Source of the DNA: Planctomycetota bacterium
GTDB taxonomy: Bacteria > Planctomycetota > Phycisphaerae > Phycisphaerales > SM1A02
Length of the DNA stretch: 64,000 nucleotides
Assembly: GCA_027618565.1 (NCBI GenBank)
Contig: JAQCEQ010000003.1
Span: 1-64,000 of the forward strand
Reading direction: 5' to 3'
Under the pieces are notes generated by a model. That model searched no databases and was not told where the DNA came from. It was given only the letters and a program-made list of their open reading frames with translations. Below, in pieces: positions 15,655 through 54,955 of this stretch; the first letter of the stretch is position 1; every line of letters starts with the position of its first letter. The position numbers were made by a program, and so were the translations under genes.

Positions 15655-16334
15655 GCACTCGATGCATCATCGCGATCGATGGCCCGGCGGGGAGCGGGAA
15701 GAGCACCGTGGCACGGGCCTTGGCCACGCGGCTCCGGTTCGCGTTCCTGGACACGGGTGCGATGTACCGGGCGGCCGCCGTGGCCGTACTGGAATCCGGG
15801 GGCGATGTCGCTGACGCCGTGGCGTGCGCGGGCATCGTCAAGCGGCACACCATTTCCCTCGACCCGGATGCGTTCCCTCCCCGGATCCTCCTGGACGGGC
15901 GCGATGTTGGCATCCGCATCCGGGACCCCGATGTCAGCGCCGCAAGCAGCCCCGTGAGCGCGTCGCCCGAGGTCCGCGCGATCCTGGTCCAGGCGCAGCG
16001 CGCCTTCGCGATCGATCATCCGTTGCTGGTGACGGAGGGTCGAGACCAGAGTTCCGTCGTCTTCCCCGACGCGGAGGTGAAGGTGTTCTTGGTGGCGCGA
16101 CTCGAGGTCCGGGCCGCCCGAAGGGCAGCCGAGCTGCGATCGAAGGGAGTGCCTGCCGATGAGGCAGAGGTCCTGCATGCGATCCAGGAGCGCGACCTCC
16201 GGGACAGCACTCGCACCACCAGCCCGCTGCGAGAGGTCTCGGGATCGTTGCGTGTGGACAGTTCGGAACTCAGCGTCGAGCAAGTGATCTCGCTTATCGA
16301 GGCGCACCTGCCGGTCGGTGCCGCACGGCCATGA
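15651..16334 (+). CDS. cmk: Cytidylate kinase
   Basis: 227 residues. Phosphorylates CMP and dCMP with ATP. P-loop IAIDGPAGSGKSTVARALA and the following FLDTGAMYRA segment are diagnostic, and the later DGRDVGIRIRDPDVSAASSPVSA block is the CMP-binding stretch, followed by EGRDQSSVVFPDAEVKVFL. The typical family motif is EGRDIGTVVFPDA; here QSS replaces IGT, a mild divergence. The start is a GTG at 15651 overlapping the preceding stop (GTGA). A longer in-frame reading from 15570 encodes an Arg/Gly-rich shadow and is rejected. It is coupled to plsC downstream by ATGA. Confidence 0.95.
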   Translation: MSTRCIIAIDGPAGSGKSTVARALATRLRFAFLDTGAMYRAAAVAVLESGGDVADAVACAGIVKRHTISLDPDAFPPRILLDGRDVGIRIRDPDVSAASSPVSASPEVRAILVQAQRAFAIDHPLLVTEGRDQSSVVFPDAEVKVFLVARLEVRAARRAAELRSKGVPADEAEVLHAIQERDLRDSTRTTSPLREVSGSLRVDSSELSVEQVISLIEAHLPVGAARP

Positions 16335-49018: not shown

Positions 49019-49044
49019 GGGTGTGGCAGGGGCGGAGAGGCGAG

Positions 49045-49135
49045 CGGACAGGGCGGGATTCGAACCCGCGATAGGGGGGATACCCCCTATGCCGGTTTAG
49101 CAAACCGGTGATTTCAACCGCTCATCCACCTGTCC
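49045..49135 (-). tRNA. tRNA-Ser (anticodon GCT)
   Basis: A 91-nt type II tRNA on the minus strand: acceptor GGACAGG/CCTGTCC, D-arm with GGTTGAAATC, anticodon stem CCGGT/ACCGG with loop TTGCTAA (GCT), a long variable arm with GGGGGT/ATCCCCCC and T-arm GCGGGTTCGAATCCCGC. It decodes AGC and AGU. No CCA is encoded. Confidence 0.95.
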
Positions 49136-49184: not shown

Positions 49185-51098
49185 TCAGCCGTCCCAGTCG
49201 GAAAGCACGGCTGCGAGTTCCTGGCCGCCGACGGTGGTGCTGGTCCCCAGCGCAATCATCGGGTTGGCCAGCCCCCAGTTGGCCAACACCGCTGCCAGGT
49301 CTGCAGCATCGACCGAACCGGAGCGATCAAAGTCGGCAATGCTCAGCGACCGTCGCGCCCGATACGCCGCGGCGTCGTCGGAGTCGACCACTCCGTCGCC
49401 GTCAAAGTCAAACATCTCGCAGCCGGCATACATCCCCGAGCCAAGGCAATCGGCAAGCGCCGGATCATCGTCGGAATCGACCTCAAAGTCACCGTCAGCG
49501 TCCCCAAGTCGTGACAGCGGATACACGCGCCACCGGCCTTCGGGCAAGCGCTCCAGCGTCCGCACTGCGCTCCCCCAAGGCCATCGGACGACCAGGGCGT
49601 CCGTCTCCATCGCCCCATCCAGCCCGAAGTGGAGCGGCAACTCGTTCTGGCCAAGGTAGCCGTGGCCTCCCGCCATGACCTGTGCGATGCGGGTGGATCC
49701 GCCGACGGAGAGGTCCACCAGCGCTCCAATCGCCTGCGTGTTCGGCCACTCTCCCACGATCTCCAGCGTGACGCTGGACCGCTCCTCCCCCTCATGGTTC
49801 ACGAGCAGGCGCAGCGTGGTGGACAGCTCGGCGGAAACCAGGTCGATGTCACCGTCCAGGTCCAGGTCGGCGGCAGCACTGCAATACGAGGGCTTGTTGG
49901 GGCCGCCAAAGGCAGCGTCGCTGGTGACATCGGTGAAGTGCCGGGTGCCATCATTGCGGTAGAGCCGATTGGGGTGCAGCTGGTTGTTGACCGCCAGATC
50001 CGTCCACCCATCGTTGTCAAAGTCAGCGGCGATGGTGCTCCAGGCGGTGATGTTGGTGCCGACGGGCAGCAGTCTCCACGACTCACTCTCCTCGAGGTAC
50101 GCCCACTCTGACGATGCGATGAAGAGCGGGTTCACTGGCCCGAGTGGCTGGTCCACCGCATTGAGGTTGGCCACGAAGAGGTCGATGATGCCGTTGCGGT
50201 CAAAGTCGCCTGGCGCAAGCCCCATCGAGTAGAGCGCTTGTCCGAGGCCGCAGGTGTCGGTCACTTCGGCGAGGGCGACCCCAGTGTTGGTCCAGGCCTG
50301 GTTGCCCTGGTAGTGCGGTGGGATGATCCCTCGATCATTGGAGAGGACGAGGTCGGGACGCGTATCGCGGTCCACATCGAGGAAGCACCCAAGGAACGAG
50401 TACGCGGGATCTCCCACACCCATCGCCGCGCCAGATTCCACCAAGAACCCACGCTGGTTCAGGTAGAGATGCGAACGCGCGTCCAGCGTGCCCGCGATGC
50501 CACCGGCGTACCGCGCGATGAAGAGGTCGGGCCAGCCATCTCCGTTCACATCTGACCACGATGCACATCGCGCCGGTCCATCCGTCTCCAGGCCAGTGCC
50601 GCCAGTGACATCCTCAAAGACGAATGGCGCGGTCTATCGGAAGAGCCTGCTGGGAGAGCCCCACATCGTGCAGAGCAGGTCGGGATCGCCATCGGCATCG
50701 AAATCAGCGAAGGAGAGCGACGATATCCCGGGGAGTTCCGGGAGCCCGCTCCCCGGTTCGCGATCGGCGAAGGTACCGGCCGTGTTTTCCCAGAGCCCCA
50801 ATCGCCCCGTGGCGTGACCACCCGCCACCAAGTCCGGGTCACCGTCGCGGTCAAGGTCGCACCAGGCCGCAGGGATCCCGTAAATGCCCGCAGTCTGTGG
50901 GTAGGAAAGCGTCGGGTAGCTCACGCCTCGAGACGCGGCCTCGTTGGTGAACGGCTCAAAGTCCGTCGCGGGCGGCCCGGCGGGCGCAGGCTCGGCTGGA
51001 GCAACCGCCGCCGTGAGGCAAGCAAGAACACCGAGCGCCAATCCAGTGTCTGCGCAGGACTCCCACCAGCCATGACGGAGTGACCGACCCACAACCAT
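49185..51098 (-). pseudogene. Secreted FG-GAP/ASPIC repeat protein with dockerin-like end, interrupted by one in-frame TAG
   Basis: Read from ATG 51098, the gene codes for 154 residues with a signal peptide (LGVLACLTAAVAPAEP) and FG-GAP repeats (WCDLDRDGDPDLVAGG, SLSFADFDADGDPDLL), then meets TAG at 50636-50634 right after SPSRLFR. The same frame continues without another stop for 482 residues, giving APFVFEDVTGG, more FG-GAP calcium loops (VNGDGWPDLFIARY, DFDRNGIIDLFVANL), an ASPIC/UnbV-like beta domain and a dockerin-like end (DFDRSGSVDAADLAAVLANW). The stop lies in a repeat and is a point event (for example from CAG), not a frameshift. I call it a pseudogene or a sequencing error; two separate genes are unlikely. 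Gene-like GC and codon use persist downstream. Confidence 0.8.
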
Positions 51099-51125: not shown

Positions 51126-51150
51126 CAAGAAAAACCCCCGTTTCCGGGGG
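51126..51150 (-). terminator. Rho-independent terminator of the subtilase gene
   Basis: On the minus strand the bases 51150-51135 read CCCCCGGAAACGGGGG, a 5-bp GC stem (six with the closing C-G variant) with a 6-nt loop, followed directly by TTTTTCTT at 51134-51127. It lies 74 nt after the subtilase stop and in front of the FG-GAP gene, which begins at 51098. Confidence 0.85.
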
Positions 51151-51223
51151 CTGGGCGAGCGATGGCATGGTTGATCACGAGCCGACGTGAATCAAGGAAC
51201 GGAACGTGCTCCGTTCGACAACA

Positions 51224-54200
51224 TTATTGGCCCACACAAGGGTCAATGGGAGCCTGCGGATTGTTGACCTCGATGACCGCCATGTCCGTGACTTGCTGGA
51301 ACTGCCCGAACATTCCGTAGCCACCAGAAATGAATCGGGCAGCGATGACGCCACCTGGGTAGTTGGGGTCGTTCATGCGAACATAGTCCGCCGGCACTCG
51401 ATATGCCGGCATGCAGAAGTTGAGCGGATCCTCCGGGAAGTTCTGGTTCAGCTGCGCGAATCCCCAGAAGTCGTAGCGACGCACTCGTGGATTGAAGGTG
51501 AAGGTAAACGCGTAGACAAAGCCACCGCTCACCCGGGCGTACAGCCTGGTGCGGAGGAAGTAGAGATCCGACGGTTTGGCTATGTTAAGCGCGCGAAGGA
51601 CCTGCAGGTCCATGGCCCGGCTCGTGCTGGGGTAGAAGACGGCTGCCCCGCCGTAGCCCGCCGACGCAGACCCGCCGGAAACGCCAGTTGACTTGATCGT
51701 CAGGTAGTTGCCATCGACCTGCTTGAGGGAGTATGTGTTGCCGCTGAGCGTGGTGCCCACCAGCACCGTGGAAGTGCTGTCATTGCTCAGATCCAACCAG
51801 TCTCCCGTGCTCACATTTTCCGCGCATGTCTTGGCGCGTGGGAAGCCGCCGATGAGGGCCCGGACATCGCCATCGGGGTCGTCGTTGTCTCCGAGGTTGG
51901 GGTTCGGCGATATAAACGGAGGCGCCACCAGGCCAGCCTGTGGGAACTTGTTGATCGGCGTCTGGAACAGTTCCAGCCATGCGGATGCCGGAATGCCGAC
52001 TCCGCCAAAGACAACCTTGGCGTGGGCCTGGATGCAGGCGATCAACCCGCCGATCTGGGCCGCCGCGGCGCTGGTTCCGGTGAATGTCGTGGTGTAGGTG
52101 CGAAGCTTGTTGGTCTCGTAGCAGTCTGGCACATAGCCGGACTCCGCGGTGATCGCGGAGTTATCGCCGAGGAACAGGTCTCCGTATCCACAGGTGGTGA
52201 CTCCACGACCCCAGCCGCTGGTGGTCATGTTGTTGGTGGGTTCATCGGAGGCGTCATAGTTGCTCTCGCCGATGCGCCCGTAGATCAGCCCGACCTGCAC
52301 GCCGCCCAGCAGGCCGAAGTCCGACCGCTGACCGGGCCAGCACGCGCCGGTGATCACGCAGCGGCTGGCATCGATGTCGACATCAGGATCCACGATCGCC
52401 GCAGCGACGGCGCTGGCACCGTTGCCGGCCGAGAGGACCCAGGTGATCCCACCGTCGGCCCCAAGGCTCAGGAGTGTCGCCGTGAGGTCCAGCTCGCCAT
52501 TCAGGCCCGTGTTGAGCGGCTGGCGATCGGCACCGCCCTTGTTGATGGGGACAATGCAGACGTTGGAAGGATCCGACCCGACCTCGGGTTCGGTCAACTC
52601 TGCAACGGCTCCCATGAGGGCGCCATTGAGGCGATCACCCGACGGCAGTCCGGAGTCCGGATCACCCGCCGTGACCGACGGGAAGAACCACTTCTGCGAG
52701 GCGTTGGTGCACAGGCCCGAGACGCCCTTGCCATCACGCTCGGCAAAGAGGACACCCAAGACAGCGGTGCCGTGGTGCGGCCAGATGACACTGGGTGAGC
52801 CACCTACGACAGACACCAGTTCAGCCGGGTCACAGCCCGCCGGGAGGCCATTGGGCCAATTCGGGTAGTCGGACCGGTCGATGGTCAGGAACATGGGGAT
52901 CCCCGCCTCCACGCGAATCACGCTTTTGCCATCGTCGTCCAAGAACTCTTCGTGGTTGACATACGCGCCCTTGTCCACGACCGCCACCTTCACTCCGCGG
53001 GCGAAATACTTCGGCACGGCACCCGTGGCGGTGGAATCCTTGATGAAGGCATTGAGGGCCTCCATCTCCAGGCCACCGCCCTTGAAGGAGGTGACCGCCT
53101 GGAAGACCTCAAAGAGGGAGTTGTTGGCGGGCGGGAATGGGTCGGCACCGTACGCCGCGTGGGTTTCCGTGCCCCAGAGCGCCAACGGCAAGGAGCCAGC
53201 CTGCGCTTCAACGTCGACGAGGTCATTGTTGTTGTTCACGATCTCCACCGTGGTCGCAGCGGCCAACGGGAAATCCGTCACAGGCACTGGTGCACCGCCG
53301 TCTTCCAGGTTCAGCAACTCCCAGCCGTAGAAGGGCGAGAGATCAGCGCTCGGATCAAACTTGTCGCCGAGCGAAATGTTGCCGCCCGCCGGGAAGTTTG
53401 CGGCAACCCCGGGCAGGCTTCCCGGTGCGACTGGCGCCGTCTGCACTGGGAATTCCGCTGGAGGACCATCATCGCCGGAACCGTCGGGAAGCTGGGGGTT
53501 CCCGCCGGGGGTCACGGGGCTGGGATTGTCAGCCAGCGGCCACTGCGTGCGCGCGAAAGTCTCCAGGCAGGGAGAGAATGGCAATGCTCCCGGCACGCCA
53601 CCGATCGGCTGCGATACCGCCATGGCCAGCGCCGCACAGTTCTCGTCCCAGGTAATGGTGCAGCAGAGGAAGTCCTGCGCGCACACGGCTGCGCAGCAAT
53701 CACTCAGATTGGTCCCGGGCAGCGGGTGTGGAACGAACGAACTGGCGAGGACTTGGACTGAGTCGGCCCAGTAGGAGGTGCTGGAGTAGCCCAAATACAC
53801 CATGCCACCGGGACTACCCACACCTGTACCAAGGTCGCAAGGACCGGTGTTCGGGTCCGGGGGCACGGACGCGAAGAAGGCCCAGACGTTTGGGTGGATC
53901 GGCGTGACATTCCCGGCAAAGGTCGTGCCCAGGCATGTATCCAGTTGGGCGGTCGCGTCCCCATTGGGGAAATAGGATGGCGTACAGAGCAACTCGGCGA
54001 TCCCGACGCAGGACGCGTCCCAGGCCCCGCCCTCGTCGACGGTATCGGCGCAGGTGGGAAGAATCGCGCCAACGGTTGCGCAACAGCCTGCCCAAGCGGC
54101 CCCTGGCGCCCACATGTACTCCGTACAACTCTCAGGATCGTAGACCTTGGCGGGAATTCCAAAATCGCACCCCGTCTGCGTCAGCACATCGCACTGCACC

Positions 54201-54892
54201 CACTCCCAGGGTTGGAAGCCGCACGCCGGGTCGCCACATGCGGCGCAGTCCACCTGCGACTGCACCGTCCTCTCCTCGATCTCGATGGAAGTCACCTCCG
54301 GGAGCGAGCCGAGAAGCCGCGCAGCCGACACGAGCTGGGCGCCGGCCCCCTCGACATAGAAGTAGGTGTTGAAGTCCGGGTAGGTCTTGCCGCTGCGAGC
54401 CGCAATCCGGGCCGTGACCGCCGAAATCAGATCCGGAGACTGGTCCAGGGCGGGACGCACCCTCAGGCCAAGCGCGCCGACGATGTTGTTGAATGCTTGC
54501 AGTCCCTCATCATTGCTGGACTCGACCCGTGCGGAGCCCGCGAGGGGTGCTCGGGGACTCCAGTCTTCGCGGAGTTTGATCAGGATTCGGCCGGTAGCAA
54601 TGGATCGGCCTGTCCGAGAATCCACTGGCTCACGGAGTGCGCCCAGATTCTTCCGCGCGCTCATGAGCGTGTCCCAGCGCGTCATCTCGATGGTCGCTTG
54701 TGGCACCTCAGTGGGGGAGAGCCTGCTTCCGGCGCTGGGTTCACCAACGGATGATCCACGGCGATCGCCCATCGTTCGACCAGATTCCACATCCCCAGGC
54801 GCCCGCATGCCAGCAGCCGCCAAGGAAACGGCACTGGCCATCAGGAGAGTGATGGGCAGGTAGACAAGGCGCGGCGCGAGTCGCGATGACAT
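51224..54892 (-). CDS. Secreted subtilisin-like serine peptidase (S8) with Cys-rich N-terminal insertion
   Basis: 1222 residues. Signal peptide near residues 8-27 (LVYLPITLLMASAVSLAAAG). A prodomain-like region ends near 215. Residues 216-430 are Cys-rich, with two units of the type CC...C...D..CC...WD..C...A (DCCAAVCAQDFLCC and TITWDENCAALAMA). The S8 catalytic parts follow: Asp640 (VAVVDKG), His707 (WPHHGTAVLG), Asn824 (VLSAGNGAS) and Ser941 (TGTSAAAAQIGG). The last 250 residues form a beta-rich end without a dockerin tail. It stands alone with its own promoter and terminator. The start ATG 54892 has GGAG about 9 nt upstream. It is likely an exported peptidase with unknown substrate. Confidence 0.88.
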   Translation of the reverse strand: MSSRLAPRLVYLPITLLMASAVSLAAAGMRAPGDVESGRTMGDRRGSSVGEPSAGSRLSPTEVPQATIEMTRWDTLMSARKNLGALREPVDSRTGRSIATGRILIKLREDWSPRAPLAGSARVESSNDEGLQAFNNIVGALGLRVRPALDQSPDLISAVTARIAARSGKTYPDFNTYFYVEGAGAQLVSAARLLGSLPEVTSIEIEERTVQSQVDCAACGDPACGFQPWEWVQCDVLTQTGCDFGIPAKVYDPESCTEYMWAPGAAWAGCCATVGAILPTCADTVDEGGAWDASCVGIAELLCTPSYFPNGDATAQLDTCLGTTFAGNVTPIHPNVWAFFASVPPDPNTGPCDLGTGVGSPGGMVYLGYSSTSYWADSVQVLASSFVPHPLPGTNLSDCCAAVCAQDFLCCTITWDENCAALAMAVSQPIGGVPGALPFSPCLETFARTQWPLADNPSPVTPGGNPQLPDGSGDDGPPAEFPVQTAPVAPGSLPGVAANFPAGGNISLGDKFDPSADLSPFYGWELLNLEDGGAPVPVTDFPLAAATTVEIVNNNNDLVDVEAQAGSLPLALWGTETHAAYGADPFPPANNSLFEVFQAVTSFKGGGLEMEALNAFIKDSTATGAVPKYFARGVKVAVVDKGAYVNHEEFLDDDGKSVIRVEAGIPMFLTIDRSDYPNWPNGLPAGCDPAELVSVVGGSPSVIWPHHGTAVLGVLFAERDGKGVSGLCTNASQKWFFPSVTAGDPDSGLPSGDRLNGALMGAVAELTEPEVGSDPSNVCIVPINKGGADRQPLNTGLNGELDLTATLLSLGADGGITWVLSAGNGASAVAAAIVDPDVDIDASRCVITGACWPGQRSDFGLLGGVQVGLIYGRIGESNYDASDEPTNNMTTSGWGRGVTTCGYGDLFLGDNSAITAESGYVPDCYETNKLRTYTTTFTGTSAAAAQIGGLIACIQAHAKVVFGGVGIPASAWLELFQTPINKFPQAGLVAPPFISPNPNLGDNDDPDGDVRALIGGFPRAKTCAENVSTGDWLDLSNDSTSTVLVGTTLSGNTYSLKQVDGNYLTIKSTGVSGGSASAGYGGAAVFYPSTSRAMDLQVLRALNIAKPSDLYFLRTRLYARVSGGFVYAFTFTFNPRVRRYDFWGFAQLNQNFPEDPLNFCMPAYRVPADYVRMNDPNYPGGVIAARFISGGYGMFGQFQQVTDMAVIEVNNPQAPIDPCVGQ

Positions 54893-54955
54893 GGAACAAT
54901 TCTCCGTTGCAACAACGATCAAAGGGATCGCAGCCAAATCCGCGACCCCGCGCTA

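Follow-up and report, generated by a model that had tools for sequence, protein, structure and literature searches.

A conserved, putatively secreted FG-GAP/ASPIC beta-propeller gene in the window (the whole 64,000-nucleotide stretch of DNA that was analysed) is interrupted by a single in-frame TAG, which is probably a nonsense mutation that has turned the gene into a nascent pseudogene or a null allele segregating in the population. On the minus strand the frame that opens at ATG 51098 runs for 154 codons ending in SPSRLFR, meets the TAG at 50636-50634, and in sequence and translation continues without a shift for another 482 codons, as far as a TGA at 49187-49185, with exactly one stop ahead of that terminal TGA. 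The original prediction had described a single in-frame TAG at 50634-50636, and its layout (154 + 482 codons, one frame) is exact. The features of the locus are as follows.

49185-51098, minus strand: FG-GAP/UnbV_ASPIC/dockerin-like secreted protein gene with one interruption (sequence, translation, Pfam, relatives' alignment)
50634-50636, minus strand: in-frame TAG, codon 155 (sequence, translation, relatives' alignment)
50637-51098, minus strand: N part, 154 codons, signal-peptide-like start (by eye) and FG-GAP repeats forming blade 1 and half of blade 2 (translation, Pfam, model)
49188-50633, minus strand: C part, 482 codons, remaining propeller, UnbV_ASPIC and weak dockerin-like end (translation, Pfam, model)
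49545-49733, minus strand: UnbV_ASPIC domain, C-part residues 301-363 (Pfam)
51133-51152, minus strand: hairpin resembling a terminator, with a T tail, downstream of the subtilase gene and immediately ahead of the interrupted gene (consensus match only)
51224-54937, minus strand: upstream neighbour, subtilase-like (Peptidase_S8) protein (Pfam; syntenic)
49044-49135, minus strand: downstream neighbour, tRNA-Ser (GCT) (tRNA search; present in relatives too)

The hairpin lies only ~35 bases ahead of ATG 51098, and a search upstream of this ATG found no sigma-70-like promoter.

Domain content and predicted fold

Long chance frames are common in the G+C-rich DNA of the window, and the status of the locus as one gene follows from homology on both sides of the TAG, not from frame length. 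FG-GAP_3 matches are found in the N part (57.8 bits, E 1.7e-15) and the C part (83.9 bits, E 1.2e-23; Pfam cut-off 26.9 for both), one match running across the TAG, while UnbV_ASPIC is matched in the C part (45.9 bits, E 5.3e-12; cut-off 23.4). Judged from its sequence, the locus is one gene with one stop, and by both Pfam domains it fits an FG-GAP/ASPIC (CRTAC1-like) protein. Of the parts originally predicted, FG-GAP and ASPIC are thus borne out, whereas the C-terminal Dockerin_1 match falls below the Pfam cut-off (17.9 bits vs 22.9) and occupies a low-quality region of the structure model. The genome holds 58 FG-GAP_3 matches, and only the one over this TAG contains a stop. It also holds 23 Dockerin_1 matches, despite which a search of the same genome for cohesin gave no match. 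Cohesin/dockerin modules have been described for freshwater Planctomycetes in one report (PMC6461901), and our search for literature combining FG-GAP, dockerin and Planctomycetes found none.

The protein read through the TAG was modelled from 34 sequences (mean pLDDT 77.2, pTM 0.78) and is predicted to form seven propeller blades, counted from the strand list, followed by the ASPIC domain. In this model residue 155, the TAG codon, belongs to strand 151-157, which is third in blade 2 of 7. Translation would end in blade 2 of 7, leaving a 154-residue stub that could not form a closed propeller; the downstream part would have no start bearing a signal peptide. If the model is right the stub should not fold into a propeller, and since the stop lies in a strand of blade 2 the truncated product would be non-functional.

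Orthologs, gene order and selection

Orthologs were sought in 61 genomes including the window's own, 55 of them giving a match, and 16 of the 19 loci from other genomes were aligned, the partial loci L024, L027 and L028 being excluded. Among the relatives listed in a contig scan all were distant, with at most 34% identity in the best segment; a Planctomycete cytochrome C match and the gene content point to Planctomycetota as the source. The closest relative, G001 of the same genus, carries an uninterrupted 663-codon frame at the same position (70% identity over the C part) with a glutamine codon at the TAG column, in line with the single-base change of CAG to TAG type that had been proposed. 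A comparison of strains had also been suggested, and all 15 relatives with a residue at this column have a sense codon (3 Gln, 10 Asn, 2 Gly; 0 stops), the sixteenth being cut by a contig end. A stop where 15 of 15 orthologs carry sense codons is the pattern of a nonsense pseudogene. In no relative whose alignment spans the site is the region split into two genes, so the single gene stands.

Within the genus, represented by three genomes (one genome per species), the gene is intact in G001, carries the TAG in the window's genome and is absent from G002. The G002 junction (L192 5541-5571), itself sequenced in a genome rated only 88% complete, leaves the subtilase gene and tRNA-Ser(GCT) 29 bases apart, and the block is otherwise kept (purD, subtilase, tRNA-Ser(GCT), DedA, sucC, HAD). 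The identity of the subtilase comes from Pfam; purD, DedA, sucC and HAD are what we take the other neighbours to be from their translations. The gene order including the FG-GAP gene is common to G001 and G018, and the same order is seen in G003, but with purD not found within the fetched stretch, and in G004, but with DedA unmatched at 1e-8; the G012 copy lies on a small contig with none of the neighbours. In G001, G018, G003 and G004 tRNA-Ser(GCT) adjoins the gene, on the opposite strand in the latter two. Because this order is shared among relatives, the gene was probably ancestral at the locus and lost in G002. In another genus, the G013 ortholog (L024 1432-1453) has a frame change with a net loss of ~10 bases relative to the G012 copy, which could be an assembly error. 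The G013 copy also has a further in-frame TAG near its start. The related genomes would then show gene loss on a small scale, the same ancestral locus being intact in some, newly broken in one, and frameshifted or deleted in others.

Both halves of the interrupted gene are under purifying selection. In comparison with G001, pN is 0.166 and pS 0.714 for the N part (104 codons), while the C part (482 codons) has pN 0.198, pS 0.606 and dN/dS ~0.19, ratios that are rough because pS is near saturation; the dN/dS values of the neighbours bracket this one, at ~0.19 (DedA), ~0.11-0.12 (sucC and purD) and ~0.45 (subtilase). Relative-rate counts for the C part with three outgroups (window-only : G001-only, 36:32, 20:32 and 23:24) do not clearly show more changes on the window lineage, and a single gap block separates the gene from G001 in 619 aligned codons. 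Relaxed selection or further lesions were sought in both halves and none were seen; a very recent break would leave selection unrelaxed in any case, so this result is not decisive against a pseudogene. With 162 one-step nonsense paths in the gene and no further lesion, the neutral divergence accumulated after the break has an upper bound of ~0.055 per site if only nonsense changes are counted, or of 0.012-0.020 per site when indels are included at an assumed 0.05-0.1 per substitution. The dN/dS of ~0.19, the lack of a clear lineage excess and the one gap block point to a young break, and purifying selection on both halves together with the lack of a second lesion indicates that the stop is either very recent or a base-calling error.

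Explanations for the stop

Such an error is the main rival to the pseudogene reading: the TAG could be a base-calling or consensus mistake, or the assembler could have fixed a variant carried by a minor strain, and the organism itself would have an intact gene. We consider this unlikely. An error would present the same single base, no other lesion and intact selection in both halves; in addition the genome is a draft assembly, the same-genus ortholog in G001 is intact, and the 42 window blocks aligned to contig 16 of G001 hold no other interrupted gene. In those alignments an internal stop flanked by conserved sequence occurs in this gene alone (23/30 and 20/30 residues identical around the TAG); a TGA at 16160, within one alignment block, was dismissed because it lies in a shadow frame, ahead of the real start at 16331. 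Against an error, broken frames are not in excess elsewhere in the window or in the 464 kb sample, so the assembly shows no sign of being noisy. This sample (the window plus 20 stretches) was scanned by codon usage, and the strict scan gave 3 candidates, each dismissed on reading its translations as adjacent, different genes (presumably NuoL/NuoM, ArgRS/Upp and L1/L10). The strict scan missed the interrupted gene (upstream score 0.06 vs a threshold of 0.15), and 935 of 1277 sampled interior codons from verified genes would pass it. A relaxed scan returned 18 sites, the interrupted gene among them; the other 17 include the 3 strict ones, 9 were judged by eye only and 5 were checked with Pfam, which found different families on the two sides in 4 and no match on the downstream side of the remaining one. 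Loss or breakage of the gene in relatives also lends credibility to a real null, and we infer that the TAG base is real.

Read-through of the TAG, by a near-cognate glutamine tRNA or programmed recoding, with low-level full-length protein, is improbable. Purifying selection in the C part and an encoded tRNA-Gln with CTG anticodon are compatible with it, and PMC9481147 reports insertion of glutamine at UAG; the UAG read-through rates measured there are low (~0.01% in P. putida, 1 in 20,000 in P. aeruginosa). The stop is kept in no aligned relative, TAG ends 9 of the 41 window genes whose ends align (TGA 31, TAA 1), and the genome encodes three RF-1-family matches. None of the 44 typed tRNAs in the draft genome (96.83% complete) has a CTA anticodon. 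The one match to pyrrolysine synthetase (PylS_Cterm) scores 18.5 bits (cut-off 178), and similarly weak matches appear in 13 of 14 controls, with 1 over the cut-off. Recoding is therefore unsupported, and a code change or pyrrolysine was dismissed. tRNA-Tyr is also absent among the 44 tRNAs found, probably through an assembly gap or a miss by the search model. That the TAG is real and fixed, with glutamine insertion yielding a secreted stub and rare full-length protein, is more improbable still, the intact downstream frame being its sole support. Least probable is a pair of genes, the first encoding a secreted FG-GAP protein of 154 residues and the second a C-terminal protein with a start of its own: a GTG at 50549 does open a 454-residue frame, but this codon sits within an FG-GAP repeat and, judged by eye, no signal peptide follows it; in the model the split would cut through a propeller blade, and all aligned relatives covering the site have a single frame.

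Of the three options originally offered, a recent pseudogene is thus best supported, sequencing error remains its rival and read-through is disfavoured. Most likely the lineage is just starting to lose the gene, which is nothing out of the ordinary and involves no new reading of the genetic code. The case carries little weight for general biology; for annotation it advises caution, with one gene, not two, and no new code.

Comparison with known systems

The FG-GAP family binds calcium. The nearest solved relative of the window protein is murine CRTAC1 (9etn), by sequence (profile E 4.9e-47) and by fold (E 4.0e-28, TM 0.61 by query length), and the two share the propeller followed by an ASPIC domain of the CRTAC1/ASPIC-UnbV family (Pfam PF13517 + PF07593). 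Unlike CRTAC1, to which it is ~20% identical, the window protein is bacterial, has a sub-cut-off dockerin-like end and is interrupted by a stop.

UAG recoding is known through pyrrolysine, suppressor tRNAs and phage code 15. Such systems and the window gene alike have an in-frame TAG followed by conserved coding sequence, but in the window gene none of the decoding parts sought was found and the stop is not conserved in the aligned relatives. Nonsense pseudogenes are a known kind in bacteria, and nothing distinctive sets the window gene apart from them beyond its being young and without a second lesion; like them, it has one in-frame stop in a conserved frame and belongs to a gene lost in relatives.
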